In this document: positions 31,141 through 60,566 of the stretch, piece after piece
Layout: each line of letters starts with the position of its first letter
How positions within the stretch are numbered: the stretch's first letter is position 1
Assembly (NCBI RefSeq): GCF_030704535.1
Contig: NC_081811.1
Location: forward strand, 12,097,001 to 12,161,000
DNA length: 64,000 nt
Source of the DNA: Vitis vinifera
Taxonomy: Eukaryota; Streptophyta; Magnoliopsida; Vitales; Vitaceae
Reading direction: 5' to 3'
Position numbers and translations under genes: made by a program
Notes under the pieces: model-generated
Told to the model about the DNA's origin: nothing
The model's database searches: none
What the model saw: only the letters and a program-made list of their open reading frames with translations

Positions 31141-31148
31141 TTAAATTT

Positions 31149-33919: not shown

Positions 33920-33925
33920 AGGGAG

Positions 33926-34138
33926 AGTCTTAGAATTTTGAATTTTACTATTTGAGGTTTTTTGTATATATATATATGTATGTAAAATTATGCATACAAT
34001 TGTAAATTAGATTAGGAAGAATAATCCCTCATTTCTTGGGATTGTTTTGATTTATAGGGATTGCTAGTTTATTTATTTCCTTTAATATAGGATATAAATT
34101 ATCACAACTAATTAAATAAGAATTCAATACCATTTTTT
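33926..34138 (+). repeat. Probable Copia 3' LTR
   Basis: Directly follows the RNase H stop and a purine tract (AAGGGAGAG, 33920-33928). It contains a (TA)n stretch near 33966 and a short AT-rich tail. There is no second LTR to compare, so both ends are approximate. Confidence 0.5.
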
Positions 34139-34179
34139 GCCACAACTTGGAAATGTAAGTGTAAGAATCACAACTTTGA

Positions 34180-35095
34180 CAAGAAACCTAGAAGAACTAG
34201 AACGAAAGATAATCTATAAATGAATTGTTAGAAATGGCTCAGACTTGTGCCATATGCGAGTCTAGAGGACACATAACCAATAAGGGTCTTACCATTCCTA
34301 TAGTGAAAGATATTTTTAGTGAAAAAGCTGTTGTAATTGGAATCTTAGTTGGTTGAATGGTGGCAGGTTTAGACAAGAAAGGAATTACCCATTCTAGAAC
34401 ACCTATAATGCAAGCTAGAGAAATCATCTAAATTTTTCTTGGAGCAATCTAAACAATTTTCAAGAAAGATATGAAACCAAGGGATGATCTAAGGGAATAA
34501 AGGTGTCAATGTGATCAATTTAATCAACCTTAGTCTCAAACTACAAATCAACTCCAAAAGCATCAAATCGTAAACCTTCTTTATCATCCTCATTAGAAGC
34601 AAGATTTCATTGAAGATTAAGAAAAGTATAATGAAGAGCTTAGGAAATTTTCTGTTAAGTAAAAGAAATGGAATGAAGAACAATACAAATTCAATTCTTA
34701 AACACCCCAAGCCCTCACCAATATCCAAACAACCTTAAATAAGTTGAAAATATAGACTAATGGGGATAAAGGGAAATTTCCAGCCTAACCTCATCAGAAT
34801 GGAAGGGCTCTTTATAAAGCAAAGAAAGGTGAAAGTTATTCTCACAATCAATAAGAGGTGAAAGAAGTAGTTTCATTGAGAAGTAGAAATTTTTTTAAGG
34901 AAACTAAAAAAGAGAAAGAGGTTGATGTTGAGAAAAAACAAAACATAACTAAACTTCATGGTAAGGTAAAGGAGATGGAAGAAAACGAACCAAGAAAAGG
35001 GAGGAAGATATAAAAGGAAAGACCAGAACATCGTTGCTCAATTTCCTTGTACTTTAAAGGGTAAGAGATCTGAGAATAAATATGATGAATTTTTT
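34180..35095 (+). pseudogene. Gypsy gag C-terminal remnant
   Basis: AQTCAICESRGHITNKGLTIP, near 34230-34290, is the nucleocapsid knuckle, with Gly in place of its last Cys. ENHLNFSWSNLNNFQERY follows at about 34420-34470, a hallmark of this gag family. A lysine/glutamate-rich linker covers 34860-35050. Stops interrupt the frame. Confidence 0.7.
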
Positions 35096-35735
35096 TATGT
35101 GTTGAAGCAAGTGAAAGTCAACATACCTTTGCTTCATGTTGTCAAACAAGTGAGAGTGATAATTGAATGTAAAACCCTTGTAGAGTACAAGGATCGAGGA
35201 TGTCCAACAATCTCTATTACTATCGAAGATGAATTTATGGAAAAGACATTGTTAGATCTAAGGGCTAGAGACAATCTATTATTATACTCTTTGTACAAGA
35301 AATTGGATTCGGGGAACCCGAAAAAGACAAGCATCACTTAACCGTTGATAGATCTTTTAATCAAAATACCTAGAGGTTTGAGGGAGGATGTTTTGGCATA
35401 AATGGACAAATTCTTTTATCCTTGTATTGGATACCAAGCTAATTCAAATGAGATCTAATTTGGTGCTTCTTATTTTCAAAAGACCATTCTTGCTACTATT
35501 AATGTTATAATAAATTGTATGAATGGAATAATGAAATTAACTTTTAGTAATATGACTTTAGAGACAAACATATTGCACATGAGAAAGCAATTATTTGTAC
35601 AAAAAGAAGAAATAGAAGTCTTCTCGGTTAACACTCTTATCCAAGAACATGATGATTTTCTACTAGAGAGTAAAGTTGATGAAACATATGTTTGTTTCAA
35701 GGTATTGAGCAGTGATATGAGGTAGAGGAAACTTT
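35096..35735 (+). pseudogene. Gypsy protease remnant
   Basis: VKVNIPLLHVVKQ, YKDRGCPTISITI and TLLDLRARDNLLLYSLYKKL (about 35250-35308) are the pre-protease and active-site region. The family's D-x-G triplet reads D-L-R here, so the catalytic glycine is lost. IPRGLREDVL follows after a stop at 35339-35341. NGIMKLTFSNMTLETNI (35522 onward) continues the region toward RT. Confidence 0.75.
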
Positions 35736-37670
35736 TGTTGAGGTGCGGGTCTAAGAGTAAGGAAATCTTAGGTACTGAAAATGTTAAAAACACTAAGAAG
35801 TATTGAGGAGAAAAACAAAGAAAGACAACCCTTGTACAAAAGGGGTTGCAATGTGTCTTTTCAAAACATATCAGTGATTATCCCTACAGAGCTTAAGGTT
35901 AAACAAGAAAAGATGCTGATCAAAACTTTAAGAAGTTGTCAAAAAACCATAGGTTGGTCAATTGAAGACTTAAAAGGAATAAGCCCATTGATCTATACAC
36001 ATCATTGGACAAAGGAGCTAACATGGTTCACCAACCTTAAAGAACATTGAGTACTCATATGCAAGAAGTTGTGAGGGCTAAGGTGATTAAGCTCCTTGAT
36101 CCCAAAATTATTTACCTTATTTCTGATAACACTTAGGGTAGATTGAGTTATGTTGTGCCAAAGAAAAGTGGTATCACAATAGTTATTAATGAAAAAGAGG
36201 AAGTCATTCTTACAAGACTAACTTTTGGTTGGAGGTTATGGGTTGATTACATAAAGTAAAATATAGTAGCTATGGAAGACTATTGTTTTCTAGCATTCCT
36301 TGACCAAACTCTAAAAAAGGGTAGTTAGATGGTTCTTCTAGATATTTTCAAATTGACATAACTCCAATGGATTTGGTGAAACTTACCTTACATATATAGA
36401 AAGATGCCTTTAGGGTTTTGGAATGCTCTTACACCATTTAAAAGGTGCATGATCCATATATTTTCAAAATCGTGAGAAAGAGAAATGGAAGATTTCATAT
36501 GAAGGATATAATTTCAACAAGGTGAATTGAAGTAGGACAAGAAAAAATAGTTGATTATGAAACTACCCAATCGCTCTAGTATGAGATGGAATGTGTCTTT
36601 TTAAGACAAATCGGTGATTATCCCTATAGAGCTTAAGATTGAACAAGAAGAGAAGCGAATTAAAACATGAAGAAGTTATCAAAAAACCATGGGTTGGTCA
36701 ATTGAATACTTAAAAGGAATGAGCACGTTGATCTATAAGCATCTTTGGAGAAAGGAGCTAACATTGTTCACTAACCTTAAAGAACATTGAATCCTCATAT
36801 GCAAGAAGTTGTGATTACTAAGGTTATTAAACTCCTTGATCCCCAAATTATTTACTCTATTTCTGATAGCAATTGGATTAGTTCGAAATAAGTTGTGCCA
36901 AAGAAAAGTGGTATTAGAGTTGTTAAGAATGAAAAAGTGGAAGCCATTCTTACAATATTAACTATTGGTTGATTACAAAAAGTAAAAGATGGCAGCTAGG
37001 AAAGACTATTGTTTTCTACCATTCCTTGACCAAACACTAGAAAACGTAGTTGGATATCATTTCTATTACATTGATTGTTGATTTAGATATTGTCAAATTG
37101 GCATAACTCTAAAGGATTGGGCTAAAACTACTCTTACTGTTTTTGGGATATATGTATGTAGAAAGATGCCTTTAGGGTTATGGAATGCTCCTACAACTTT
37201 TAAAAGGTGTATGATCATTATATTTTCAAAATTGTTAGAAAGAGAAGTTGAAGTATTCATAGAAAGGATATAATTTCGAAAAGTGGAATTGAAGTTGGAC
37301 ATGTAAAAATTGAGTTTATTGTGAAATTTCCTAGTCTCTCTTGTATGAGTTGAAATTTACCTTTTTAAAACAACTTGGTGATTATGCCAATAGAGCTTAA
37401 GGTTGAATGAGAAGAGAAGCTGATAAAAAATTTAAGAAGTTAAAAAAACAATAGGTGGGTGACTTGATGACCTAAAAGGAATAAGCCCATTAATCTATAT
37501 ACATCATTGGACCAAGGAACTAGCATTGATAACCAACCTTAAAGAACATTGAATCCGCATATGCAAGAAGTTGTGAGGATTAAGATGATTAAGCTAGTTG
37601 ATCACAAAACTATTTACCCTATTTCTAATAGCACTTTTGTGAGTTTGAGTTAAGTTGTGCCAAAGAAAAA

Positions 37671-37675
37671 TGGTG
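37671..37675. repeat. 5-bp target-site duplication, left copy
   Basis: TGGTG precedes the LTR that starts TGATTCGTGCC; the same five bases follow the right LTR at 45199-45203. Confidence 0.85.
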
Positions 37676-38069
37676 TGATTCGTGCCCAATTGGTGTCTCA
37701 GCTGATTCGTGTCCAGCTGGTGTTCCTTGATTGAGGGAGTAATCAACAAAATTTATAACCTATTACACCATTTACTAGGATAGCAAAGACAAAGCTACTA
37801 TAGCATAGTGGCTCTAAGATCATTCACTGGGATGAGTTTTCACTTTGCAAATGATATTAATTCAAAGCTGAATTGGTGCCTTTTCATTTCAAGGTTAGCT
37901 TTAAAAGAAAACATAAATATGTTTGAATGAAAAAGGTTTGGTTTTAAACTAATCAAAAATAGTAATTGATTTTACTTACAAAGAAAAGTGTTTCTTGGAG
38001 TTTCAGATCACTAGGCTCAGATTCCTCATACAAAAAGGGAGTTCCGGTCACTTGTTTCTTTTCCTCGCA

Positions 38070-38100
38070 TTAGAGAATTAACATATAGTTAATTCTCTAA
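38070..38100. repeat. Perfect palindrome in LTR
   Basis: Arms TTAGAGAATTAAC and GTTAATTCTCTAA with loop ATATA. The second LTR has the same at 43771-43801. Confidence 0.95.
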
Positions 38101-38563
38101 CCGGTGTTGTACAGATGCTTCCCATTAATGGGTTCAAACACTAAATCCCTCTCACTGATGCACCTTGCAATGGCTCATACCTCTCACCTAGCACTTGCCA
38201 TTCAAGGCGATCTTTAACCTTGGATTACCCGTCAAAAGCTCGCAAGAGATAACTAATGGATGTCTCCGTGGAGTCCAAAAGCTTACCAAGTGTTGGCTAT
38301 TCTAGAAAATCCTACCTTCAAGTCACCTCCCAGAGGCTCGTAAGGGGTAAACTAGTGCATCTCCATGGACGGAGATCACTTGCCTTACCAAGTGTTGACC
38401 CAGGTGATTTAAAGGCGTTTTAAGTTAACTAAAAAAATAAAAACCATTAACGGGTCACACTTTCTCTTCATTAAAAACTAAAACAACAAAACTTCCAAAT
38501 TATGCATGTGGAAACTTACCCGGATTTCCTCACTCCAAGAGACGAAAAGCCTAGCCTCTCATC

Positions 38564-38585
38564 CTCTGAGGAAAAATCCTCAGAG
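38564..38585. repeat. Hairpin CTCTGAGGA-AAAA-TCCTCAGAG in LTR
   Basis: Perfect 9-bp arms around an AAAA loop. Repeated in the other LTR near 44265-44286. Confidence 0.93.
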
Positions 38586-39498
38586 TTTGGTTAGCAAGAA
38601 AATGAAAATGAAAGAGAAGGAAAAACAGAGCAAAGCTCTGTATATTCTATATATTTATATATCTATCTCCCGTTGGATTACATGATTCTATCTTACATGA
38701 TTTTTTGAGAACAAGCTCCCGAGAGCTATATATAAAGAAAATTACAAAACAAAATATCTGAGGTTATTCACCCCTTTTCCAAACTTAATAACTAAAGAAT
38801 CCTATAATTGGTGGGTTACAAGGAGAAAATGGAGATTTAGATATCAAAAAAATCTAAAGAAAAATATCTCACAATGTCGGTCGCAACTATCGGGAAGCTT
38901 TAGGAGAACACCCGTGCACTGTGCAAAATGGCTGCGAAATTCTCGCAGCAAAAGGCTGATTTCGCAGCCGTGCAAAAATCTTCCTTCAGCTTGGAGTGAT
39001 CGGCTTGCAATGGCTCTAACTCCTTCATTTCAACTCCGAATTGCACACCGTTTGAAGCATTGGATTCTTGACTTGCTGAGATTTGAAATGGTATATAACA
39101 TGTAGAAAATGGACTTCGGGAAGTTCTCCAAAAGTGCGAAAGAAGACTGCAGCTGCTGTCCTCTGTTTTCTTCACTCTGTTTTTCCTCTCTCCTTTGTTC
39201 TTTCCTTGCATACTTTGAACGACTTTGGAAAAGGGCTATGGAGCTCCAAAGCTTGGTTCTTCATGAATTTGAGCTTCCAAAAGCTTTGCCATGAAATATA
39301 TACAGCTCTCCCTCATTCTTGGATTGCTTTGGTGTAGCTAAAAGCTATCAAAAACACCAAAACTTAACACAATTTGATTAGAAACGATTGCAAGGGTCCT
39401 TAACATGTCAATTGGGTTAAAATGCAATAACTACTACTCAAAAGTGTTTAAAAGATTTAATTACAAGCTATCAAATAGCACTTTTTGAGTAGTAATCA

Positions 39499-39508
39499 CT
39501 CCCCCCAA
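39499..39508 (-). other. Polypurine tract
   Basis: Read on the minus strand, TTGGGGGGAG abuts the start of the 3' LTR (TGATTACTAC). This is where plus-strand DNA synthesis would start. Confidence 0.85.
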
Positions 39509-39974
39509 CCGACATATTGCTAGTCCCTTAGCAATGAAGAAGAGAAAAATAAAAATAAACAATACTATAATTTACAACATCATGCTGATCAAAAAAAAAT
39601 TTCAAGTGGCATGATGATCTAGCTCTCACATGGAACGTTAAAGAAATAAAACTCAAACTTCAACAAGAGTTATCAAATAACTTGTCTAATCACAATTCAT
39701 AAAGAGAAGGCATTATGCAAATTTAAGCTTTAAAAGAGTTTCCACTCCCAAAGGGTCAAACCTTACTCTTCCACAAAAACCTAAGTGTTAATTATTAGTT
39801 TCCGAATATAGTATGTTGAACTAATCTCTCTCCCCAACCTAGTTCTTTTTCAAAGCTTAGCAAACTGATCAACCTCTAATAGGTTAAGAACGCACCTTTT
39901 TTTTTTTTACAATTTTTTTCATTGTAAGAGTACAAGGCTTAAAGGTATTCTTTTCTAAATTGTCCATGTAACGG

Positions 39975-40230
39975 GGGTCCATCGATGACTCCCAACCAAT
40001 TAAGGTTTAGGGCATCAAGCTTTAAGGATCTTTCAACCACTAACTCCCCGGATTTTACCCCGGACTTTTGAGAATGAATTTTTAATACCCAAGCACCTAC
40101 AGTATGTTAAACTCCACCTATTCACCCTTGTAACGAGTATTGAGGTCGATGACTCCCAACCAATTAAGGCTTAGGGCACCAGGTTTTAAAGATTTTCACC
40201 ATATACCCCTCAGACCTTGCTCGGGTTTCA
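39975..40230 (-). repeat. Internal direct repeat, two copies
   Basis: CGATGACTCCCAACCAATTA starts at 39983 and 40147. Flanking TTAGGGCA(T/C)CA and CCC-rich text also recur, giving a period of 164 bp. Confidence 0.8.
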
Positions 40231-41199
40231 AGGCAAGCAAACATTTTTTTTTTCTTTTTCAAAGACTCATTGGCCTTTTATAAGGTGTCCCAACACTATT
40301 AAATGAGGTCAAAGGTACCAAGTCTAAAATTTTCCTAAGTCAAGAGGGAAATAGTTTTTCATCTTATAATCGGAACCTAGTGTGCACAGTGTGTGAATAG
40401 CTTAAAGTGGAAGAACTGAGGTTGAATTCAAAAGAAGTTTCAACAATTTATCAACTTTAGTAAGTATAATACAAACTCTAAGTCAAGTAAAAAGACAAAA
40501 ATTCAATTTCTCCCATTTCATTTTGAAAATTTTTCCTTAATAACCATGGGGAGTAGAATAAAAACTTTTAAAAATTTTAAAAATTAACCAAAAAGCAACT
40601 AAATTACCAAAATAACTTAGCATTATTAACAATACTTACTTCCTTAACTCTCCCCCCAACTAAGTTGAACATTGTCCTCAATGTGACAAAAGCGATTGAA
40701 AAATAGGGAGGAAGTGGTGCCTCCTGAGTGACATGGAGTCTGAGTCGTATAGGAGAAACCACATGTTTCAAAGAAAATATAAGAGTTAGTGAGTAGAGGA
40801 AATAGAAAAATGCCAAGTTTAAACAAAAATTGATGTCTATATATGATGCATCATCAGTAATACATCCAATCCCAGAATATAAGACATCAAAACATGGAAT
40901 TATCTATACTAATATAATATGTAAAGACAAAAAGTAAAGAGATGATCAAGTAATGATAAGGTCCTGTGGAGCTAAATGTGTCTATGGTGGCCTCTTGAAT
41001 GGGTTGGATCAGGACTTTGGCTTCTGTTCTGGTAGTCTCCTTAGGTGGCATAGTCTCCTTAACTGGAGCTCTCAGTTGGTAGCTATGGGCTCTGATGGTT
41101 TTAGGAGGTTAGAAATGGAGTGAAAGGCTTAGTGTGTGTGATCTCAAGGTGCGCAGGGCTCTCCTCATCAGATGCATGGTCGCGGGGCTCTGATGGCAT

Positions 41200-41830
41200 T
41201 TTAGCAACTTCCCTTGGCTTTGCAAGGTGTTTTTGCAAACCTTCCTCCATTTCGCAAGTCAATTTCGCAATTTGAAGGCCATTTCGACGCTTGGAGATGA
41301 TTTCGCAGCCATTTCAAAGCTTGGAGATGATTTCGTAGCCATTTCGAAGCTCAAAGGTGATTTCGCAGCCACGAAATGAGTGTATGGGGCTTCGAAATGG
41401 CATTCGTGTGCCAAAGGGTGGTTTCGCAGCTGCAAAACACCCTGCGAAATGGGGCTTTGGCTGCGAATTTTTTTTTTTTTTCTCAGAGCAAAGGCTTTGT
41501 TTTTTTTTTTTGGATTTCGCAGCCATTTCGCAGCTGTGAAATGAGATTCACTGTGCTGCGAAATGGCACTCGTGTGCCAAAAATGGTTTCGCAGTTGCGA
41601 AACTCCCTACGGAATGGAGCTTTGGCTGCGAAATTGAGAATTTTCACATTTTGGAGCTTCGTAGCCGTTTCGCAGCTGCGAAATGGGGGCTTCTGTGCTG
41701 TGAAGTGGCATTCGTGTGCCAAACTTGGTTTCGCAGCTGTGAAAATTTTTGCAGAGAGGGGCCTGAGGCTGCGAACTGGTTTTGCAGCAAAGTGTCGATT
41801 TCGCAGAGGTTGTGAAATCTCGCAGACTCC
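41200..41830 (-). repeat. Repeat field built on TTTCGCAGC/GCTGCGAAA
   Basis: Three main units centred on TCGTGTGCCAAA (41404, 41570, 41712), with many copies of TTTCGCAGC in both orientations. Similar words occur inside the LTRs (near 38932-38970 and 44632-44670). Many inverted pairs would allow stem-loops in the RNA. Confidence 0.85.
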
Positions 41831-42053
41831 TATTTTTGCCCTGTTTTTGACCCGTTTTTGCTCCAAAAGACTTCCTTTCAATTTCTTTGCAATTCCTCCT
41901 GATTTTGATCATCCAAAAACCTATATTACATCAAAACAAATTAGAATTAAAGCATTGAAATCAAAATTAAAGCATTGAAATCAAAATTAAAACAAGTAAA
42001 AAAAACAAAACAAAAAAATATGGACTAGCTAGTCTTTAAAAAGACTAAGTCCA

Positions 42054-43133
42054 TCAAAAAATTTGATCCTGATTTAGCTTGCCCGGATCCCATATGAAGT
42101 TTGCATCTCTCACTTGGGGCTTTCTCTGTATGATTTTGCCATACAAAGCTTGGAGAAAAGGTGGAGGCATGTGTTTCTTCATGAATTCTTCTTTGATGAC
42201 TATCCTCTGTGGTTCTCTTTGTACATTAACATCATAGCCATCATTCTCTATGCTTTTCCCCTTTTTCTTTCCTTTGATTTCCTCCCTCTTTTCTTTCTCT
42301 GTTTCACTCTCTACCTTATGCTCTAGCTTGCATGTGGGTAGATCAACCTCTTTACCACTCAAAGTGATAACCGTTTTAACTTCCTTCACCATTGAAGATT
42401 CTTCCTCTTGAGCCTCCACTACATGGATGCCCTTGGAATTTTGATAAGGTTGAGAAGGAGAGTTTTCTTTCTCTTGCATTGTGTTGAGGTTGGCAAACCT
42501 TGAGATTGAATCTTGGAGATTATCTATCTTCTGAGATAGATCATTTTGCATTTCATCCATCCTTTTAATCAATGAACTCTCTACACTGTCAATTCTTTGA
42601 CTGAGATGAGCATTGATGGATTTCTGAGCTCCAACAAAGTCTCCCACGACCTTGCTAAGATTCACCATAGCTTGTTCAAGGCTTGAGGCTTGCTGTGGTG
42701 CTTGAGCAGGTTGCTTGTACTGAGGCGGCTGTGGTTTCCAAGAGAAATTTGGATGGTCCCTCCAATTGGAATTGTAGGTGTTGCAATCACCAAACATTTC
42801 CCTCTCGGCTGGAATGGTAGGACACTCATCCACCAAGTGCTCATAAGATAGACAAATGGCACAAGGCATAGCTTGCAATGGTGTCTGAGAGATGGCTTGC
42901 ACTGGTTGCATATTCGTCATTTCTAGCTTTTCCAATCTCCTTTCCATAGCTGCAAACTTTGCTTTCATGTCTATGCCGTCATTCAAAATATACATCTCAC
43001 CCTTAACATCAGGTTGAGATGTCATTCTTCCCATATCTCTAGCATTTGGTTCATCCCATCCTCTTGAGACTTCAACCACATAACTCATGAAGTTCATGGC
43101 TTCCTCTGCTATGGTATTCAATATGGCATGCAC
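42054..43133 (-). CDS. Shortened Gypsy gag polyprotein (359 aa)
   Basis: The only intact long frame in the element. It begins inside the usual gag: MHAILNTIAEEAMNF is followed by SRGWDEPNARDMGRM, a motif found just before the nucleocapsid in this gag family. The core capsid-forming N-terminal domain is therefore absent. A CX2CX4HX4C zinc knuckle is at residues 91-104 (CAICLSYEHLVDEC), with all four ligands present, followed by NWRDHPNFSWKPQPPQ. A predicted coiled region (about 150-215, with LSQRIDSVESSLIKRMDEM) and a Lys/Glu-rich segment (about 260-300) come next. The C-terminus VRDANFIWDPGKLNQDQ has no protease after it. It may bind element RNA; particle assembly would need gag from another element. 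The start is the first ATG of the frame. Confidence 0.85.
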   Translation of the reverse strand: MHAILNTIAEEAMNFMSYVVEVSRGWDEPNARDMGRMTSQPDVKGEMYILNDGIDMKAKFAAMERRLEKLEMTNMQPVQAISQTPLQAMPCAICLSYEHLVDECPTIPAEREMFGDCNTYNSNWRDHPNFSWKPQPPQYKQPAQAPQQASSLEQAMVNLSKVVGDFVGAQKSINAHLSQRIDSVESSLIKRMDEMQNDLSQKIDNLQDSISRFANLNTMQEKENSPSQPYQNSKGIHVVEAQEEESSMVKEVKTVITLSGKEVDLPTCKLEHKVESETEKEKREEIKGKKKGKSIENDGYDVNVQREPQRIVIKEEFMKKHMPPPFLQALYGKIIQRKPQVRDANFIWDPGKLNQDQIF

Positions 43134-43360
43134 AACTTAGCAATTTGTGAATTAAAAACAGAGAACACAAAAGAAAAACAATTCAAAGAAAGAAAAAAAA
43201 ATTAAGGTAGACTAAAAACTAAAGAAAAGGTATACTAAAATATGAACAAAGAAAAATAAATAAATAAAAAGAGTTAGTAAAAGGAAAAGAAAAGTCACCA
43301 AACTTGTGATGAAGATCACAAGTACTCTGAAAAGGTGATATCACTGTAAAGTGGCACCGT

Positions 43361-43377
43361 CCCCGGCAACGGCGCCA
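43361..43377 (-). other. Primer-binding site of the gag-only element
   Basis: On the minus strand TGGCGCCGTTGCCGGGG lies two bases after the 5' LTR. This is the primer site typical of Athila/Tat-type plant Gypsy elements (tRNA-Asp by memory), and it fixes the element's sense as minus. Confidence 0.88.
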
Positions 43378-43379
43378 TT

Positions 43380-45198
43380 TGATTCGTGCCCAATTGGTGT
43401 CTCAACTGATTCATGTCCAGCTGGTGTTCCTTGATTGAGGGAGTAATCAACAAAATTTATAACCTATTACACTATTTACTAGGGTAACAAAGACAAAGCT
43501 ACTATAGCATAGTGACTCTAGGATCGTTCACTGGGATGGGTTTTCACTTTGCAAATGATATTAATTCAAAGCTGAATTGGTGCCTTTTCATTTCAAGGTT
43601 AGCTTTAAAAGAAAACATAAAGATGTTTGAATGAAAAAGGTTTGGTTTTAAACTAATAAAAAATAGTAACTGATTTTACTTACAAAGAAAAGTGTTTCTT
43701 GGAGTTTCAGATCACTAGGCTCAGATTCCTCATACAAAAAAGGAGTTCCGGTCACTTTCTTTTCCTCGCATTAGAGAATTAACATATAGTTAATTCTCTA
43801 ACCGGTGTTGTACAGATGCTTCCCATTAATGGGTTCAAACACTAAATCCTTCTCATTGATGCACCTTGCAATGACTCATACCTCTCACCTAGCACTTGCC
43901 ATTCAAGGTGATCTTTAACCTTGGATTACCCGTCAAAAGCTCGCAAGAGATAACTAATGGATGTCTCCGTGGAGTCCAAAAGCTTACCAAGTGTTGGCTA
44001 TTCTAGAAAATCCTACCTTCAAGTCACCTCCCAGAGGCTCGCAAGGGGTAAACTAGTGCATCTCCATGGACGGAGATTACTTGCCTTACCAAGTGTTGAC
44101 CCAGGTGATTTAAAGGCGTTTTAAGTTAACTAAAAAAATAAAAACCATTAACGGGTCACACTTTCTCTTCATTAAAAACTAAAACAACAAAACTTCCAAA
44201 TTATGCATGTGGAAACTTACCCGGATTTCCTCACTCCAAGAGACGAAAAGCCTAACCTTTCATCCTCTGAGGAAAAATCCTCAGAGTTTGGTTAGAAAGA
44301 AAATGAAAATGAAAGAGAAGGAAAAACAGAGCAAGGCTCTGTATATTCTATATATTTATATATCTATCTCCTGTCGGATTACATGATTCTATCTTACATG
44401 ATTTTTTGAGAACAAGCTCCCGAGAGCTATATATAAAGAAAATTACAAAACAAAATATCTGAGGTTATTCATCCCTTTTCCAAACTTAATAACTAATGAA
44501 TTCTATAATTGGTGGGTTACAAGGAGAAAATGGAGATTTAGATATCAAAAAATCTAAAGAAAAATATCTCACAATGTCAGTCGCAACTATCGGGAAGCTT
44601 CAGGAGAACACCCGTGCACTGTGCAAAATGGCTGCAAAATTCTCGCAGCAAAAGGCTGATTTCGCAGCCGTGCAAAAATCTTCCTTCAGCTTGGAGTGAT
44701 CGTCTTGCAATGACTGTAACTCCTTCATTTCAACTCCGAATTGCACACCGTTTGAAGCATTGGATTCTTGACTTCCTGAGCTTTGAAATGGTATATAGCA
44801 TGTAGAAAATGGACTTCAGTAAGTGCTCCAAAAGTGCGAAAGAAGACTGCAACTGCTGTCCTCTATTTTCTTCACTCTGTTTTTCCTCTCTCCTTTGTTC
44901 TTTCCTTGCATACTTTGAACGACTTTGGCAAAGGGCTATGGAGCTCCAAAGCTTGGTTCTTCATGAATTTGAGCTTCCAAAAGATTTGCCATGAAATATA
45001 TACAGCTCTCTCTCATTCTTGAATTGCTTTGGTATAGCTAAAAGCTATCAAAAACACCAAAACTTAGCACAATTTGATTAGAAACGATTGCAAGGGTCCT
45101 TAACATGTCAATTGGGTTAAAATGCAATAACTACTACTCAAAAGTGTTTAAAAGAGTTAATTACAAGCTATCAAATAACACTTTTTGAGTAGTAATCA
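43380..45198 (-). repeat. LTR (right in window; 5' LTR of the element)
   Basis: 1819 bp, nearly identical to 37676-39498. On the minus strand this copy would drive transcription. Confidence 0.92.
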
Positions 45199-45203
45199 TG
45201 GTG
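45199..45203. repeat. 5-bp target-site duplication, right copy
   Basis: TGGTG, matching 37671-37675. The RT unit resumes directly after it. Confidence 0.85.
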
Positions 45204-48200
45204 TCACACTAGTTAAGAATGAAAAAGAGGAATTCACTCTTGCAAGACTAACTATTGGTTGGAAAGTATGGATTGATTACAAAAAGATTAAAATATTGTA
45301 GCTAGGAAACACTATTGTTTGTACCATTCCTTAACCAAACACCAGAAAAAGAAGTTGGATATCTTTTCTATTACATAGATGGTTGTTCTAGATATTTTCA
45401 AATTAGCATAACTCTAAAGGATTGGGTGAGAACTACTCTCGCTTCGCTCGGGATATATGTGTATGGAAAGATGCCTTTAAGTTTATGAAATGCTACTACA
45501 ACTTTTTAAAGGTGCATGCTTAGTACATTCTCAAAATTGTTAGAAAGAGAAATGAAAGTTTTCATAGAAAGGATATAATTTCAATAAGAAGAATTGAAGT
45601 CGGACAAGTAAATCTTGAGTTGATTGTGAAACTTCCTAATTCATCTAGTATGAGTTGAAATGTGTCTTTTTAAATCAAATCGGTGATAATGACTATAGAG
45701 CTTAAGGTTGAATAAGAAGAGAAGCTGATCAAAACTTTCACAAGTTATCAAAAAACCATAGGTGGGTTAATTGATGACTTAAAAGGATTAAGCCCATTGA
45801 TCTATACACATCATTGGATAAATGAGCTAACTTTGTTAACCATCCTTGAAGAACATTGAATCCTTATATGCAAGAAGTTGTGAGGACTAAGGTGATGAAG
45901 CTGGTAGACTACAAAAATTTTTTTCCTATTTTTGATAGCATTCGTTAGTTTGACTTAAGTCGTGCCAAAGAAAAGTGGTATGATAGTAGTTAAGAATGAG
46001 AAAGAGGAAGTCATTCTTAAAAGACAAACTATTTGTTAGAGGTTGTGGCTTGATTACAAAAAGTGAAATATAGCAGGTAGGAAAGGCTATTGTTTTCTAC
46101 AATTTCTTAACCAAACACTAGAGAAGGTAGTTGAATATCTTTTCTTTTACTTAGTTGTTCTACATATTTTCAAATTGGCATAAAATCCAATGGATTGGGT
46201 GAAAGCTACTCTCTCTTCTTTTGGGATATATGTATATGGAAAGGTGCTTTTAGGGTTATGGAATGCTCCTGTAACTTTTAATAAGTGCATGATCAATATA
46301 TTTTCAAAATTGTTGGAAAGAAAAATGGATGATTTCATAGAAAGGATATAATTTCAAAAAGGAGAATTCAAGTAGGACAAACAAAATATAGTTGCTTATG
46401 AAACTACCTAATCCCTTTAGTATGAGTTGGAATTAGTTTGTTTCAAACAAAAGGTGATTATCCCTATAGATCTTAAGGTTGAACAAGAAGAGAAGCTGAT
46501 CAAAACTTTAAGAAGTTATAAAAAAACCATTGGTTGGTCAAGTGAAGACTTAAAAGGAATAAGCCTATTGATCTATACATATCATTGGAAAAGGAGCTAA
46601 CATTGTTCACCATGCATAAAGAACATTGAATTCTTATATGCAAGAAGTTGTAAGACTAAGGTGATTAAGCTCCTTGATCCCAAAATTATTTGCCTTATTT
46701 CTAATAGCATTTGTGTTAGTTTGACTTAAGTTGTCCTAATGAAAAGTGGTATCAGAGTAGTTAAGAATGAAAAAGAGGAAATGATTCTTACAAGACTAAC
46801 TATTGGTTGGAGGGTATGGGTTGATTACAAAAAGTAAAATATATTGGCTTGGAATGACCATTGTTTTCTAGCATTCCTATACCAAACACTAGAAAAGGTA
46901 TTTGGATATCCTTTCTATTACTTACATGGTTGTTCTTGATATTTTCAAATTGACACAACTCTAAAGGATTAGGGTTAAACTACTCTCACTCCTTCTGGTA
47001 TATATGTATATAAAAAGATGCCTTTTGGGTTATGAAATGCTCTTAAAACTTTTAAAAGGTGCTTAATCAATGTATTTTCAAAATTTTTAGAAAGAGATGG
47101 AAGTTTTCATAGAAAGGATATAATTTCAAAAGGGAGAATTGAAGTAGGACAAGAAAAAATTGAGTTGATTGTAAAGTTTCCTAATCTCTTTAGTATGAGT
47201 TGGAATGGGCATCTTTAAAACAAATCGGTGATTATCCCTATAGAGCTTAAGGTTTAACAAGAAGAGAAGTTGATCAAAACTTTAAGAAGCTATCAAAAAA
47301 CCATAGGTTGGTCAATTGAAGACGTAAAAGGAATAAGCTCATTGATCTATACACGTCATTGGACAAAGGAGCTAACATTGTTGACCAACCTTGAAGAACA
47401 CTGAATCCTCATATGCAAAGAGTTGTGAAGACTAAGGTGATTAAGCTCCTTGATCCCTAAATTATTTACCCTATTTGTGGTAGCACTTGGGTTAGTTTGA
47501 CTTAAGTTGTGCCAAAGAATAGTGGTATCATAGTGGTTGATAATGAAAAAGAGGAAGTCATTCTTACAAGACAAACTATTGGTTGGATGGTATGGGTGAT
47601 TACAAAAAGTAAAATACAGTAGCTTGGAAGGATTATTGTTGTCTACCATTCCTTTACCAAACACTAGAAAAGGTAGTTGGATATCCTTTTTATCACTTAG
47701 ATGGTTGTTCTAGATATTTTCAAATCAGGATAACTCTAAAGGATTAGGTGAAAACTACTCTCACTCTTTTTGGGATATATGTATATAGAAAGATGTTTTT
47801 ATGGTTATGGAATACTCCTACAACTTTTAAAAGGTGTATGATCGATATATTTTCACACTTGTTAGAAAGAGACATGAAAGATTTCATAGGAAAGATATAA
47901 TTTTAAAAAGGAGAATTGAAATAAGACTAGCTAAAATTGAGTTGATTATGAAACTACCTATGCCTTTAGTATGAGTTTGAATATGTCTTTTGAAAACTAA
48001 TCGATGATTATCCCTATAGAGCTTAAGGTTGATCAAGATGAAAAGTTGATCAAAACTTGAAGAAGTTAACAAAAAACCATAGGTTGGTCAATTGAATACT
48101 TAAAAGGAATAAGCCCATTGATCTTATACACATCATTGAACGAAGGAGCTAACATTGTTCACCAACCTTAAGGAACATTGAATCCTCATATGCAAGAAGT

Positions 48201-51200
48201 TGTGAGGACTAAGGTGATTATGCTCCTTGATCCCAAAATTATTTACCCTATTTTTGATAGCACTTGGGTTAGTTTGACTTAATTTGTGCCAAAGAAAAGT
48301 GGTATTAGAGTAGTTAAGAATGGAAAAGAGGAAGTCATTCTTACAAGACTAACTATTGATTAGAGGGTTTTGGTTGATTACAAAAATGTATAATACAGTA
48401 GCTTGGAAGGACTATTGTTGTCTACCATTCCTTTAGCAAACACTAGGAAAGGTAGTTGAATATCCTTTCTATCACTTCGATGGTTGTTCAAGATATTTTC
48501 AAATTTGCAAAACTCTAAAGGATTAGGTGAAAACTATTCTCACTCCTTTTGGAATATATGTATATAGAAAGATGCCTTTAGGGTTGTGGAATTGTCCTAC
48601 AACTTTTAAAAGGTCCATGGTTAATATATTTTCAAAATTATTTGAAAGAGAAATGGAAGATTTCATAGAAAGTATATAATTTTAAAAAGGAGCATTAAAG
48701 TAGCATAAGAAAAAATTGAGTTGATTATTAAACTACCTAATCCCTCTTGTATGAGTTGGAATATGTCTCTTTAAGACATATCGGTGATTGTCCCTATAGA
48801 GCTTCAGATTGAACAAGAAGAGAAGTTGATCAAAACTTAAATAAGTTATCAAAAAACCATAGGTTGGTCAATTGAAGAGTGAAAAGGAACATGCTCATTG
48901 ATCTATACACATCATTGGACAAATGAGCTAACATTGTCGATCACCCTTAAAGAGCATTGAATCCTCTTATGCAAGAAGTTGTGAGCAATAAGGTGATAAA
49001 GCTCCTTGATCCCAAAATTATTTACCATATTTGTGATAGCACTTGGGTTAGTTTCAGTTAAGTTGTGCCAAAGAAAAGTGGTATCGCAATATTTAAGAAT
49101 AGAAAGGAGGAAGTCATTCTTACAAGACTAACTATTGGTTAGCGTGTATGGGTTGATTACAAAAAGTAAAATATAGTGGTTAGGCATGACTATTGTCTTC
49201 TACCATTCCTTGACTAAACTCTACAGAAGAGTAGTTGGATATCCTTTCTATTACTTAGATGGTTGTTCAATATATTTTCAAGTTGGCATAATTTCAATGG
49301 ATTAAGTGAAAACTATTCTCACTCCTTTTGGGATATATGAATATAGAAAGATGCCTTTAGAATTAAGGAATGCTCCTACAACTTTTAAAAGGTGCATGAT
49401 CAGTATATTTTCAAAATTGTTAGAAAGATGAATAGAATTTTTCATACAAAGGATATATTTTCAAAAGAGAGAATTGAAGTAGGACAAGTAAAAATTGAGG
49501 GTATGTGTTGATTACAAAAAGTAAAATGTAGTAGCTTCGAAAGATTATTTACTTGGGTGATTATTTTAGATATTTTCAAATTGGCATAACTCTAAAGGAT
49601 TGGGTGAAAACTGCCCTCACTCCTTTTGGGATATATGAATATAGAAAGATGCCTTTAGGGTTAAGGAATGCTCCTACAATTTTTAAAAGGTGCATGATCA
49701 ATATATTTTCAAAATTGTTAGAAAGATGAATGGAAGTTTTCATATAAAGGATATATTTTCAAAAGAAAGAATTGAAGTAGGACAATAAAAAATTGAGTTT
49801 ATTGTGAAACTACCTAATCCCTTTAGTATGAGTTCAAATGTGTCTTTTTAAAACAAGTCGGTGATTATCTCTACAGAGCTTAAGGTTGAATAAGAAGAGA
49901 AGCTGATCAAAACTTTAAGAAGTTGTAAAAATACCATAGGTTGGTCAATTGAAGACTTAAAAAGAATAAGCTAATTGATCTATAGACATCATTGAACAAA
50001 GGAGCTAGCATTGTTCATCAACCTTAACTAACATTGAGTACTCATATGCAAGTTGTTATGAGGAATAAGTTGATTAAGCCCCTTGATTTGAAAATTATTT
50101 ATTTACTATATTTCTGATAGTACTTGGGTTAATTTGATGTAAGTTGTGTCAAAGAAAAGTGGTATCAAAGTAGTTAAGAATAGAAAAGAGGAAGTCATTC
50201 AACAAGACTATTGGATGGAGGGTATGGGTTGATTACAAAAAGTAAAGGATAGTAGCTAGAAAAGACTTTGTTTTCTACCATTCTTTTACCAAACACTAGA
50301 AAAGGTAGTTTGATATCATTTCCATTACTTATATGGTTGTTCTAGGTATTTTCAAATTGGCATAACTCTAAAGGATTAGGTGAAAACTACTCACTCCTTT
50401 TGGGATATATATACATAGAAAGATGCCTTTTAAGGTTTTGGAATGCTCTTACACCATTTAAAAGGTGCATGATCAATATATTTTCAAAATTGTTCGAAAG
50501 AGAAATGGAAGATTTCATAGAATGGATATAATTTCAAAAAGGAGAATTGAAATAGGACAAGCAAAAATTCAGAGCATTATGAAACTACCCAATCCCACTA
50601 GTATGAGTTGAAATGTGTCTTTAAGACAAATGGGTGAGTATCCTTATCGAGCTAAAGATCGATCAAGAAGAGAAACTGATCAAAACTTTAAGAAGTTATT
50701 AAAAGACCATAGGTTGGTCAATTGAATATTTAAAAGGAATAAGCACATTGATCTATAGACATCATTGGACAAAGAAGCAAACATCGTTCACCAACCTTAA
50801 AGATCATTGAATCTTCATATGCAAGTTGTGAGGATTAAGGTTATTAAACTCCTTGATCCCAAAATTATTTACCCTATTTCTGATAGCACTTGGGTTAGAT
50901 AGATTTAAGTTGTGCCAAATAAAAGTGGTATGAGAGTAGATAAGAATGAAAAAGAGGAAGTCATTCTTACAAGACTAACTATTGGTTGGAGGGCATGGGT
51001 TGATTACAAAAAGTAAAAGATAGTAGCTAGGAAAGACTATTGTTTTCTACCATTCCTGGACCAAACAGTAGAAAACATAGTTGGATATCCTTTCTATTGC
51101 ATAGATGGTTTTTCTAGATATTTTCATATTGGCATAACTCTCAAGGATTGGGCGAAGACTACTCTTACTCTTTTTGGGATATATGCATGTAGAAAGAGGC

Positions 51201-54200
51201 CTTTAGGGTTATGGAATGCTCCTACAACTTTTAAATGGTGCATGATCATTATAGTTTCAAAATTGTTTGAAAGAGAAATGGAGATTTTCTTGGAATGGAT
51301 ATAATTTCAAAAAGTAGAATTGAAGTTGGATATGTAAAAATCGACTTTATTGTGAAACTTCCTAATGCCTCTAGTATGAGTTGAAATTTGCCCTTTTAAA
51401 ACAACGCGGTGATTATGCATATAAAGCTTAAGGTTGAACAGGAAGAGAAGTTGATCGAAACTTTAAGAAGTTAAAAAAAACCATAGGTGGGTCAATTGAA
51501 GAGCTAAAAGGAATAAGCCCATTTTTTATACACATCATTAGACAAAGAAACTAACATTGTTAACCAACCTTAAAGAACATTGAAGATATCCAAGAAGTTG
51601 TGAGGACTAAGATGATTAAGCTCGTTGATCGCAAAACTATTTACCCATTTTTGATAGCACTTGTTTTAGTTTGAGTTTAGTTGTGCCAAAGAATAGTGGT
51701 GTCACATTAGTTATGAATGAAAAAGAGGAAGTCATTCTTACAAGACTAACTATTGGTTGTCAGGTATGGATTGATTACAAAAAGTAAAATATTTTAGTTA
51801 AGAAACACTATTGTTTGTTCCATTCCTTGACCAAACATTAGAAAAGGTAGTTGGATATCCTTCCTTTTACTTGATGGTTGTTCTAGATATTTTCAAATTA
51901 ACATAACACTAAAGGATTGAGTGAAAACAACTCTCGCTTTGTTCGGGATATATGTGTATAGAAAGATGTCTTTAGGTTTATGAAATGCTCCTACAACTTT
52001 TTAAAGGTGCATGATCAATATATTTTCAAAATTGTTAGAAAGAGAAATGGAAGTTTTCATAGAAATGATATAATTTCAATAAGGGGAATTGAAGTCGGAC
52101 AAGTAAATCTTGAGTTGATTGTGAAACTTCCTAATCCCTTTAGTGTGAGTTGAAATGTGTCTTTTTAAAACAAATCGGTGATTATGACTATAGAGGTTAA
52201 GGTTGAATAAGAAGAGAAGCTAATCAAAACTTTTAGAAGTTATCAAAAAAGCATAGGTGGGTCAATTGAAGACCTAAAAGGATTAAGCCCATTGATCTAT
52301 ACATATCATTGGACAAAGGAGCTATCATTGTTAACCAACCTTGAAGAACATTAAATCCTTATATGAAGGAAGTTGTAAGGACTAAGGTGATGAAGCTCGT
52401 TGATCACAAAATTATGTACCCTATTTCTAATAGCAGTGGTTAGTTTGACTTTGGTTGTGCCAAAGAAAAGTGGTATGATAGTAGTTAAGAATGAGAACGA
52501 GGAACTCATTCTTACAAGACAAACTATTTGTTGGAGTGTGTGTTGATTACAAAAAGTAAAATATAGCAGGTAGGAAAGGCTATTGTTTTCTACCATTTCT
52601 TAACCAAACATTAGAGAAGATAGTTGGATATCCTTTCTATTACTTAGATTGTTGTTCTAGATATTTTCAAATTGGCATAAATCTAAAAGATTGGGTGAAA
52701 GCTACTCTCACTCCTTTGGTGATATATGTATATGGAAAGAGGCCTTTAGTGTTATGGAATGCTCCTACAACTTTTAAAAGGTGTAACATCAATATATTTT
52801 CAAAATTTTTAGAAAGTGAAATGGAGTTGATTGTGAAACATTCCAATCTCTCTAGTATGAGTTGAAATGTGTCTATTTAAAACAAAACTGTTATTATGCA
52901 TATAGAGCTTAAGGTTGTATAGGAAGTGAAGCTAATGAAAATTTTAAGAAGCTATCAAAAAATCATAGGTCGATCAATTGAAGACTTGAAAGGAATAAGC
53001 CCATTGATCTATACATATTATTGGACAAAGGAGCGAACATTGCTCACCAACCTTAAAGAACATTGAATCCTCATATACAAGAAGTTGTGAGGATTAAGGT
53101 GATTAAGCTTTTTGATCCCAAAATTATTTACCCTATTTGTGATAGAAATTGGGTTTGTTTGAGTTAAGTTGTGCCCAAGAAAAGTGGTATCACAGTATTT
53201 AAGAATGGAAAAGAGGAAGTCATTCTTACAAGACCAACTATTGGTTAGAGGGTATGAGTTGATTACAAAAAGTTTAATATAGTGGTTAGGTATGACTATT
53301 ATTTTCTACCATTCCTTTACCAAAAAATAGAAACGGTAGTTGGATACCCTTTCTATTACCTAAATTGTTGTTCTAGATATTTTTAAATTGGCATAACTCT
53401 AAAGGATTAGGTGAAAACTACTCTCACTGCTTTTGGGATATATGTATATAGAAAGATGCCTTTAGCGTTATGAAATGCTCCTACAACTTTTGAATGGTGC
53501 ATGATCAATGTATTTTCAAAATTGTTGGAAAGAGAAATGGAAGTTTTCATAGTAAGGATATAATTTCAAAAAAGAGAATTGAAGTAGGACATGTAAAAAT
53601 TGAGTTGATTGTGAAGCTTCCTAATCTCTCTAGTATGAGTTGAAATGTGCCTTTTTAAATCCAATCTGTGATTATCCCTATAGAGCTTAAGGTTGAACAA
53701 GAAGAGAATTTGATCAAAACATTAAGAAGTTGTAAAAAAAACCATCGGTTGGTCAATTGAAAACTTGAAAGGAATAAGCCAATTGATCTACACACATAAT
53801 TGGAGAAAGGAGCTAACATTGTTCACTAACCATAAAGAACATTGAATCCTCATATGCAAGAAGTTGTAAGGACTAAGGTGATTAAGCTCCTTGATCCCAA
53901 AATTATTTGCCTTATTTCTGATAGCACTTAGGTTAGTTTGACTTAAGTTGTGCCAATGAACAGTGGTATCACTATAGTTAAGAACGAAAAAGAGGAAGTC
54001 ATTCTTACAAGACTAATTATTGGTTGAAGGGTATGGGTTGATTACAAAAAGTAAAATATATTGGCTAGTAATGACTATTGTTTTCTAGCATTCTTTTGCC
54101 AAACACTAGAAAAGGTAGTTGGATATCCTTTCTATTATTTAGATGGTTGTTCTAGATATATTCAAATTGGCACAACTTTAAACAATTGGGGTAAAAATAC

Positions 54201-56193
54201 TCTCACTCTTTTTAGTATTTATGTATATAGAAAGATGCCTCTTGGGTTATGGAATACTCCTAAAACATTTAAAAGGTACACGATCAATGTATTTTCAAAA
54301 TTGTTAGCAAGCAAAATGGAGGTTTTCATAGAATGGATATAATTTTGAAAAGGAGAATTGAAATAGGACAAGTGAAAATTGAGTTGATTGTGAAACTTCC
54401 TAATCTCTCTAGTAGTTAGGAAAGACTAGTGTTTTCTACCATTCCTTGACCAAACTCTAAAAAAGGGTAGTTAGATTTTCTATTACTTAGATGGTTGTTT
54501 TAGATATTTTCAAATTGGCATAGCTCCAATGGATTGGGTGAAAACCACTCTCACTCCTTTTTCGGTATATGTATATAGAAAGATTCCTTTAAGGTTTTGG
54601 AATGCTCCTTCAACTTTTAAAAGGTGCATGATCAATATATTTTCAAAATTGTTAAAAAGAGAAATGGAAGATTTCGTAGAAAGGATGTAATTTCAAAAAG
54701 GAGAATTGAAGTAGGGCAAACAAAAGTTGAGTTGATTATGAAGCTACCACATTCCTCTAGTATTAGTTGGAATGTGTCTTTTTAAGACAAATCGGTGATT
54801 GTCCCTATAAAGCTTAACATTGAACAAGAAGAGAAGCTAACCAAATTTTTCAGAAGTTATAAAAAAACCATAGGTTGGTCAATTGAAGACTAAAATGGAA
54901 TAAGCCCATTGATCTATACACATCATTAGACAAAGGAGCTATCATTGTTGACCAACCTTAAAGAACATTGAATCCTCATATGAAAGAAGTTGTGAGGACT
55001 AAGGTGATTAAGCTCCTTGATCCTAAAATTATATGCCTTATTTTTTAGAGCAGTTGGGTTAGCTTGACTTAAGTTTTGCCTAAGAAAAGTGATATCACAA
55101 TATTTAAGAATGAAAAAGAGGAAGTCATTCTTACAAGACTAACTATTGGTTAGAGGGTATGGGTTGATTACAAAAAGTAAAATATAGTAGCTAGGGAAGA
55201 ATATTGTTTTCTACCATTCTTTTACCAAACTCTAAAAAAGGGTAGTTGGATATCCTTTCTATTACTTAGATGGTTGTTCTAGATATTTTCAAATTGTCTA
55301 GCTCCAATGGATTGGGCAAAAACTACTCACTCCTTTTGGGATATATGTATATAGAAAGATGCCTTTAGGGTTTTGGAATGCACCTACAACTTTAAAAACA
55401 TGCATGATCAATATATTTCAAAATTGTGAGAAAGAGAAATGGAAGATTTCATAGAAAGGAGAATTGAAGTAGGACAAGCAAAAGTTGAGTTGATTATGAA
55501 GCTACCCAATCCTTCTAGTATGAATTGGAATGTGTCTTTTTAAGAAAAATCCATGATTATCCCTATAAAGCTTAAGATTGAACAAGAAGAAACTTTAAGG
55601 AGTTATAAAAAAACCATAGGTTGGTCAATTGAAGACAAAAGGAATAAGCCCATTGATCTATACGCATCATTGGACAAAGGAGCTAACAATGTTGACCAAC
55701 CAAAAAGAACATTGAATCCTCATATGCAAGAAGTTGTGAGTACTAAGGTGATTAAGCTCCTTGATCCCAAAATTATTTGCCCTATTTGTGATAGCACTTG
55801 GGTTAGTTTGACTCAAGTTATGGCATAGAGAAGTGGTATCATAGTAGTTATGAATGTAGAAGAGGACGTCATTCTTACAAGACTAACTATTAGTTGGAGG
55901 GTATGGGTTGATTTCAAAAAGTAAAATATAGTGGCTAGGAAAGTCTTTTGTTTTCTACCGTTCCTTGACCAAACACTTGAATTCTATTACTTATATGGTT
56001 GTTCTTGATATTTTCAAATTGGCATAACTCTAAAGGATTGGTTGAAAACTTCTCTCACTCATTTTAGGATATATATATATGGAAAGATGCCTTTAGGGTT
56101 ATGAAATGCTCCTACAACTTTTAAAAGGTGCATGATTGATGTAGGAGAAACAAAAATTGAGTTGATAACGAAACTACCTAATCCCTCAAGTAT

Positions 56194-56830
56194 GATTGTT
56201 GTTCACTAATTCCTTAGACATGAAAGATTCTATAAGAGATTCATTAAGGTGTTTTCTAAAATCGCTCAACGTCTTTTGCAGTAGCACTTCTACTTAAAGT
56301 TATTGAATTCAAGCGGTAAGAAGATTACCAGAAACCCTTTGATAAAGGAAAATGTCATTTCTGCACCCTATTGGAGGTTAGCTGTTGAACTTATGTCTGA
56401 TACTAGTGATGTTGCCATTAGAGCAGTTTTGGGATTGAGGATGGAAGGAAAACCATATGTGGTCTACTATGAAACATAAGGTTATATGAAATTCAAAGGA
56501 CTTATACCACTACGAATAAGGAACTTCTTGCTCTAGTATATACTAGGCAAATTCAGATGTTACCTTTTCAACACCATTATTGTTGTATTTATTGACCACT
56601 TTACACCAAGGTACACATTGGGGAAGAAGGACGTGAGGTCAAGATCAATCATATGGATTTTTCTCCTAGGACAATTCTATATAGAATGTGGTAGTTGATC
56701 ATTTGTTTAGAATAAATTAAATTTAAAGGAAAGGAGTAGATTAATGATGATTTTCATGATGTTGCACTCCTAGTTGAGAACAAAACTCTATAGTATGCTC
56801 AAATAGTACTAAATTTTTTTGTTACTCGTG
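56194..56830 (+). pseudogene. Gypsy RNase H remnant
   Basis: The frame that leaves the last RT unit reads FLRHERFYKRFIKVFSKIAQ (about 56212-56272), the normal link after RT. ELMSDTSDVAIRAVLGL (56390-56440) keeps the first RNase H Asp. VVFIDHFTPRYTLGKKD (near 56587) and TRWILLL-like text follow. Several stops interrupt it. Confidence 0.75.
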
Positions 56831-56869
56831 GATCTACCCTTAGAATGGAAGAACGAGGATAAGAAAGTT

Positions 56870-57310
56870 TCTCATCAAAGATGAAATATTACCTTTTGAC
56901 AATCCTTATCCATACAAGTATGGTTTAGATCAAATAATGAGAAGATTTATTTTTGAAGAGAAGATGGGAGATGTCTTGAAAATGTGCCATGATGATGCAT
57001 GTGGTGGGACTTTTCAAGAAAAATAGCTACAAATGTACTTTAGTCAAGGCTTTATAGGAATCACTACTAAAGGATGCTTGGAAATAAATGAAGAGTTGTG
57101 AGAAATTTCATTTAAGATCAATCAATAGAAAATTGGTCATGCCTTTGAACAACAACCTTGTTAAAGTATTTGACTATTGGTGAACTGACTTTGTGGGCCC
57201 TTTTCCAACTTTATTTGGACATAACCATATTCTGGTAGTTGTGCACTATATGTCTAAGTGGCTGGAAGCAACACCCAATAGGACAAACGACATAGCACGT
57301 GCAAGTGACT
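56870..57310 (+). pseudogene. Gypsy integrase N-terminal remnant
   Basis: YPYKYGLDQIMRRFI (about 56910-56955) leads into MCHDDACGGTF, the first half of the HHCC zinc domain, with His and a Cys visible. WTDFVGPF-like text near 57180-57205 marks the first catalytic Asp. The element is lost after about 57310. Confidence 0.7.
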
Positions 57311-60402: not shown

Positions 60403-60566
60403 AAGGGACTTGCAAAACAATAGTTTAGAGGGAACAACTAGTAAGGGACCTTGGCATTCTATTCTAGTTTTGGTGAATTGTATTCAAACTCTTGTTCAAT
60501 CTGTAGGAATCTGGAAAACAATAAACTACAAGGCACCCTCCCAGACTCTCGAAACCGAGAAAGTTT
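60403..60566 (+). pseudogene. Copied fragment of the receptor-kinase gene (exon 8, intron, exon 9)
   Basis: Matches 24978-25207. GACTTGCAAAACAATAGTTT and GAGGGAACA of exon 8, then CTAGTTTTGGTGAATTGTAT and CAAACTCTTGTTCAATCTG of the intron, then GGAATCTGGAAAACAATAAA and CAAGGCACCCTCCCAGACTC of exon 9. About 65 bp in the middle is deleted and the acceptor CAG is TAG. Intron sequence shows the copy came from genomic DNA or unspliced RNA. It has no coding value. Confidence 0.93.

Follow-up and report, generated by a model that had tools for sequence, protein, structure and literature searches.

Tandem units from a broken reverse transcriptase within a Gypsy-type element of grapevine, and their segmental duplicate

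The window, a stretch of 64,000 nucleotides of Vitis vinifera DNA at C7:12097001-12161000 in the genome searched here (495.6 Mb, 21 contigs), contains a long tandem array derived from the reverse transcriptase (RT) of a Gypsy element. In a similarity search of the window, a 778-bp probe (47444-48221) matches 35850-37674 and 45199-56195, all on the plus strand; five base-shuffled windows gave no matches to it at E<=1e-5. The unit starts are mostly 740-780 bp apart with exceptions of 1077, 1126 and 712 bp, and cutting from junction to junction gives 16 units of 681-1126 bp with a modal length of 778 bp (Table 1). The array meets unique flanking DNA near 35844-35850 on the left and near 56189-56198 on the right. 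These values agree closely with a preliminary description of this DNA, in which about 16 head-to-tail units of about 770 bp were placed at 35850..56193 with a total of about 12.8 kb (the units sum to 12,818 bp). The array is not in the output of Tandem Repeats Finder, where the longest period listed is 500. The same description had called the array a satellite. Its monomers are indeed arranged head to tail in tandem, as in satellite DNA; however, the homogenisation by concerted evolution that also marks satellite DNA is not seen among these units, which are on average only 84% identical (pairwise mean 83.95%, range 80.5-88.8%) and form a star-like tree. Neighbouring units show no excess similarity (lag-1 mean 83.9% among the 16 window units), and the loci known so far are this array and a second one 23 kb away on the same contig.

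Table 1. The array, its units, its flanks and associated features. Positions are those of the window; u, window units; v, unit pieces of the second array.
Feature	Position	Strand	Remarks
Array of 16 RT-derived units	35850..56195	+	12,818 bp without later insertion; probe search and junction cutting
u01	35850..36589	+	740 bp; partner v04 in second array, 93.0%
u02	36590..37349	+	760 bp; partner v06, 93.4%
u03	37350..45659	+	782 bp, split by LTR insertion 37676-45198; partner v07 (fragment), 94.1%
LTR-element insertion in u03	37676..45198	-	LTRs 37676-39498 and 43380-45198; TSD TGGTG; 7.5 kb
u04	45660..46427	+	768 bp; partner v08, 94.4%
u05	46428..47203	+	776 bp; partner v09, 92.5%
u06	47204..47981	+	778 bp; partner v10 (truncated), 93.7%; segmental duplicate stops within u06, about 47779
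u07	47982..48759	+	778 bp
u08	48760..49836	+	1077 bp; out-of-register partial duplication
u09	49837..50606	+	770 bp
u10	50607..51378	+	772 bp
u11	51379..52153	+	775 bp
u12	52154..52865	+	712 bp; internal deletion
u13	52866..53644	+	779 bp
u14	53645..54770	+	1126 bp; out-of-register join about 54402/54411
u15	54771..55514	+	744 bp
u16	55515..56195	+	681 bp; last unit, adjoins unique right flank
Left unique flank of host element	34359..35771	+	common to C13 sister, 89.4%
Right unique flank	56207..57221	+	common to C13 sister, 87.7%; RNase H piece 56285-56476 (PF17919, E 0.02)
Stretch with segmental duplicate at C7:12165223-12182976	28619..47779	+	pieces 75-94% identical; 33558-35844 at 93.7%

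The RT expected in a Ty3/Gypsy remnant is recognisable in the units. Pfam RVT_1 (PF00078) matches three of the ten stop-to-stop array pieces scanned, all below the Pfam curated cut-off (49535-49726, E 6e-6; 37082-37270, E 6.5e-4; 46184-46348, E 0.034), and the other seven have no Pfam match at E<=1. One array piece weakly resembles the Ty3 RT structure 4ol8 (E 0.073). When five window pieces aligned with two homologs served as the query, a search gave 145 proteins; most of the best 120 carry PF00078, and two homologs named as Vitis vinifera RT domain are 53 and 49% identical. Viral contigs contained no relative of the array-type protein P0001. According to the preliminary description, protease lies to the left of the array and RNase H and integrase to the right. 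The RNase H is weakly supported (PF17919), while the protease and integrase pieces have no Pfam match; these two names, which we presume from order and motifs, would complete the order PR-RT-RH-IN. By its motifs, the host element would be Athila-like. A comparison of 27.0-35.85 kb with 56.2-64 kb revealed no LTR pair, and hence no LTRs with TSD, of the host element, which fits a truncated remnant. Fragments on either side of the host element match RVT_2 (32564-32824, E 4e-6, below cut-off) and SH3_retrovirus (59839-60309, E 8e-22); both are presumably Copia-like.

A sister element on contig C13 (87-89% identity) has the left flank (17533572-17535004), one RT (17542999-17543719) and the right flank (17543731-17544754) in the same order as around the array. 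About 8 kb of other DNA lies between its left flank and its RT, the RT begins at unit position 173, and further units are absent from the two C13 stretches fetched (17528501-17548499). The single RT, a piece of which corresponds to protein P0075 at 98.4%, has a mean identity of 88.2% to the array units. Because left flank, single RT and right flank follow each other in this order in the sister, our data support growth of the array in place, within the Gypsy element to which it belongs; the sister with both flanks is the best evidence for the local expansion of the RT segment proposed earlier. It likewise bears out the proposal that the units sit where the single RT should be, except that the unit is a damaged RT segment without the DD stretch.

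A different start would be a first duplication during reverse transcription, by strand transfer between co-packaged RNAs, so that the repeat arrived with the element, as with the 3'UTR repeats of Tat/Ogre elements. Such a route has been hypothesised for 3'UTR arrays (PMC7004042), and a broken element can be mobilised in trans. However, a search with the left flank, in which all 25 candidates were scored and 26 matches listed, gave only three places at >=88% identity, namely the array, its segmental duplicate and the single-RT sister, and no dispersed element carrying an array was seen in that search. We therefore regard a start during reverse transcription as improbable and growth in place as the preferred reading.

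The preliminary description pictured a single array. Instead, there are two, the second of which arose by segmental duplication. It consists of ten unit pieces (v01-v10) at C7:12176337-12182976, 23 kb downstream of the window array and on the same strand, inside a segmental duplicate of about 28.6-47.8 kb of the window. Ahead of it, several pieces correspond to window 28619-35844, one of them (33558-35844) at 93.7% and the rest at 75-91% identity. Six units of the window array have partners in the second array, one to one and in order, at 92.5-94.4% identity (Table 1), as against 75.8-89.1% for the other u-v comparisons. The duplicate stops inside the partner of u06, and there is no right flank there. 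The identity of v01, v02, v03 and v05 to any window unit is at most 86.6%. As these four are as old as the other units, their loss from the window array is the simplest reading; at least 20 units would then have existed when the segment was duplicated. At the point matching 31981/31984, where the window runs on without a break, the duplicate contains about 5 kb of other DNA (C7:12167550-12172632), with a 165-bp direct repeat (92%) at its ends. The window also holds at 30094-31855 a duplication of about 500 bp (30094-30604 / 30597-31128, 87%) that runs into about three copies of a repeat of about 251-257 bp, and this tandem structure is present in the duplicate.

The second array, together with 11 array-type proteins from other records, might suggest that the window array belongs to a satellite family spread more widely through the genome. 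The second array is, however, a segmental duplicate. Of the proteins, four fit the window array at 92-98% (P0001, P0121, P0123 and P0124) and four the second array at 94-98% (P0002, P0065, P0083 and P0090), two look like mosaics of known units (P0122 and P0082) and only P0003 has no place in either array (81%). A search of the full genome with the unit, as proposed in the preliminary description, brought up the second array and no third one among the best 39 of 171 candidates, which were those scored; most of the window array itself is absent from that listing. A genome-wide family is thus very improbable.

The proteins from independent records support that both arrays exist. This bears on the possibility of an assembly artefact, tandem arrays being often misassembled: single units of both arrays have matches of up to 98% among proteins from other records, no pair of window units exceeds 88.8% identity and a transposable element with its TSD splits one unit (u03), all of which makes an artefact highly unlikely. 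The LTRs of this element, 1.8 kb each, are 97.0% identical. It contains one ORF of 360 aa (42054-43136, minus strand) and no long pol ORF, and it looks non-autonomous. No gag model of Pfam matched the ORF, which we take to be gag-like by sequence features; on the same features, we assume that the element may share its lineage with the array it struck. A 30-bp tandem repeat lies within it at 41278-41371.

This insertion is absent from the second array. The units differ from one another by a K2P distance of 0.18, the partners in u-v pairs by 0.068 and the two LTRs by 0.028. These distances place the array first, the segmental duplication second and the LTR insertion last; since the RT on C13 is nearer to the units (88.2%) than these are among themselves (83.9%), the loci differ in rate, and no more than the order can be read from the distances.

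The RT appears to have been already broken when amplification began, because the units have a deletion join and stop codons in common and the sister keeps the missing stretch. At the join, the RT on C13 has 127 more alignment columns (177 vs 50), that is, the approximately 127 bp with the catalytic DD, and it encodes VFIDD. The join is readable in 13 of the 16 window units, larger deletions covering it in u12, u15 and u16, and in nine of the ten downstream pieces, the tenth being truncated; the DD region is seen in none of the 16 window units. The stop at the column of 50906 is common to 12 and that at 51014 to 14 of the 16 units. Where the two BLAST pieces of the C13 RT meet at the deletion, 14 bp of unit sequence (685-698) are covered by both, as would be expected if the deletion had occurred between short imperfect repeats. 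For homologs that continue past the DD (P0004, P0006, P0009 and P0075), three of 91 array matches run >=12 residues beyond it, at 31-51% identity; these fall in or across u08, u12 and u15, units with other joins or deletions, and we read them as chance extension.

After amplification, the units drifted neutrally. Pairwise differences at codon positions 1, 2 and 3 are 15.35, 16.6 and 15.25% (167 codons), the minority counts are 224, 253 and 217 (p 0.21), and of the roughly 259 codons in a unit the longest open stretch covers 49-101 aa. The array encodes nothing visible. The idea that the repeats form a functional gene with several RTs, or are kept by selection as a regulatory repeat, has nothing in its favour that we found and conflicts with the broken frames and with codon positions that all vary to the same extent; its probability is negligible.

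CpG loss was considered as proof of decay before amplification and was dropped. The observed/expected CpG ratio is 0.19 in the array, 0.32 in the window, 0.45 in the later insertion and 0.39 and 0.27 in the left and right flanks, but it is 0.05 in the C13 sister. Because this single-copy sister is also CpG-poor, the low ratio may reflect either a trait of the family or decay common to both, and it says little on timing. T>C changes at TG columns of the array (19/751) are about as frequent as elsewhere (65/2886). CHG columns are few, yet many transitions occur there (11 of 46 cells), a point that we counted against our best explanation.

As to the start of the tandem, the left flank (GGGGTTGCAATG), the units (AGTATGAGTTGGAATG) and the right flank (AGTATGATTGTTG) have TTG, about 3 bp, in common at the join, a match that could be chance. 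Units eight apart have a mean identity of 86.3%, compared to 83.4-83.9% at lags 1-7 (u01-u09, 86.4%; u02-u10, 87.4%; u03-u11, 88.8%; u04-u12, 86.7%), with p 0.00015 for lag 8 and p 0.002 for any of lags 1-11 in 20,000 permutations. High means also occur at lag 14 (86.4%, 2 pairs) and lag 15 (85.9%, 1 pair), which lie outside the any-lag permutation. In a tree of the 26 units and the C13 RT, all six u-v pairs have support of 100; u12 joins u04-v08, u11 joins u03-v07 and u14 joins u05-v09, each at 100, and u10 joins u02-v06 at 96. The pair u01-v04 groups with u08, u15 and v05 at 100, while its grouping with u09 reaches only 68, and support is low at several deeper nodes.

Further observations bear on exchange between units. 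The best partner switches along the length of several units, and u08 and u14 contain out-of-register joins. The u08 stretch 49549-49797 is 89.2% identical to 49251-49499 and 89.0% to 53368-53604. In u14, the first copy is nearest to u05 and the second to 50251-50572; both being nearest to other units, a local origin of the extra stretch is rejected. In P0122, residues 1-37 correspond to 47018-47128 and residues 38-66 to 45584-45670, neither part with more than one mismatch; an exchange shifted by two units would produce such a protein. P0082 begins like u04 (3 of 48 residues differ), yet is overall nearest to v08 (83.7%). Both mosaics could be chimeric contigs. The block relations, the units found in one array only and the out-of-register joins point to unequal exchange or conversion as the force behind growth.

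Based on these data, we suggest a local history of the array, which we consider quite probable. A Gypsy element would have been resident in the chromosome when a deletion of about 127 bp took out the DD stretch of its RT. An illegitimate recombination or a replication slip, with about 3 bp shared, would then have duplicated the broken RT stretch of 778 bp in tandem. By unequal exchange or non-allelic conversion, the tandem would have grown to at least 16 units, probably 20 or more, with a multi-unit block being copied on the way, and would later have undergone little homogenisation and the neutral drift of its units. By the segmental duplication, a copy of the left flank and of some array units would then have come to lie 20 to 30 kb downstream, with later losses of units in one array or gains in the other; the LTR insertion into u03 came last. 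The two arrays, the sister with one RT, the deletion common to the units, their neutrality, the block and pair relations and the order by distance are directly shown by the sequences, while the pathway of recombination and a seed event in chromosomal DNA are what we infer.

Retroelement-derived tandem repeats are already known, mostly from LTR or UTR sequence, while here the monomer is a coding piece of RT. Their nearest known kind are CRM1TR and CRM4TR of maize, which also derive from a Gypsy element and have long monomers, with locus averages of 696 and 819 nt and a segment of about 1370 nt (Sharma et al. 2013, PMC3648361). There, a start by illegitimate recombination at trinucleotide matches has been proposed, with growth mainly by non-allelic gene conversion and unequal exchange left possible; the arrays were dated by nested LTR elements, and CRM1TR comprises two neighbouring loci (PMC3648361). 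As in that kind, the grape monomer can be traced to one retroelement, here by the single-RT sister with both flanks. However, the maize monomers are LTR plus UTR and up to 97-98% like their parent, while the grape units are coding RT, 84% alike and still between their own pol flanks (PMC3648361). The Ogre/Tat 3'UTR repeats and derived satellites likewise occupy a fixed place inside an LTR element, but they lie downstream of gag-pol in many elements and a replication origin is hypothesised for them, whereas the grape array lies inside pol at one locus and its duplicate (PMC7004042).

Satellites related to LINE ORF2 or gag (PROsat, Pvc 20, chicken HinfI and rye E3900) and the Ty3/gypsy-related 250-bp repeat of wheat also have retroelement sequence, partly coding, as monomer (reviewed in PMC9659126 and PMC6947457). 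None of the satellites in the table rows of these reviews covered here is traced to an LTR-element RT; a figure legend names POL (reverse transcriptase) among the regions drawn (PMC9659126). That review holds that LTR, UTR and other non-coding origins prevail and that any part of an element may serve as monomer (PMC9659126). In grape, tandem repeats are known with monomers of 107 nt (VvSat1; PMC10845522; 107 bp also in PMC10199708) and 677, 964 and 994 nt (VvSat158, VvSat214 and VvSat67; PMC10845522); some are long, and by length none corresponds to the 778-nt unit. Titles and the beginnings of abstracts in the literature searched mention no RT-derived tandem array of grape.

Among the many satellites with similarity to retroelements, the birth step is usually wiped out by homogenisation. 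Here, the steps can be ordered because the array lies between its own flanks and has both a single-copy sister and a later segmental duplicate; the sister shows the single-copy state and the duplicate keeps an earlier state of the array. This suggests that LTR or UTR repeats are unnecessary for starting a tandem array. More generally, satellite-like DNA might start from dead RT coding DNA by a chance duplication at a few bases, with neither LTR/UTR repeats nor retrotransposition, and spread by segmental duplication, units being exchanged within and perhaps between arrays; to this broader proposal we give an even chance.

Elsewhere in the window, 23034-24226 holds a piece of a malectin-like receptor-type gene (PF12819, E 3.8e-34 for 23034-23612). 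A zf-RVT fragment at 4669-5253 (PF13966, E 2.6e-15) is presumably of LINE type. A 137-bp stretch is repeated at 25071-25205 and 60430-60566, 35 kb apart, with 89% identity.
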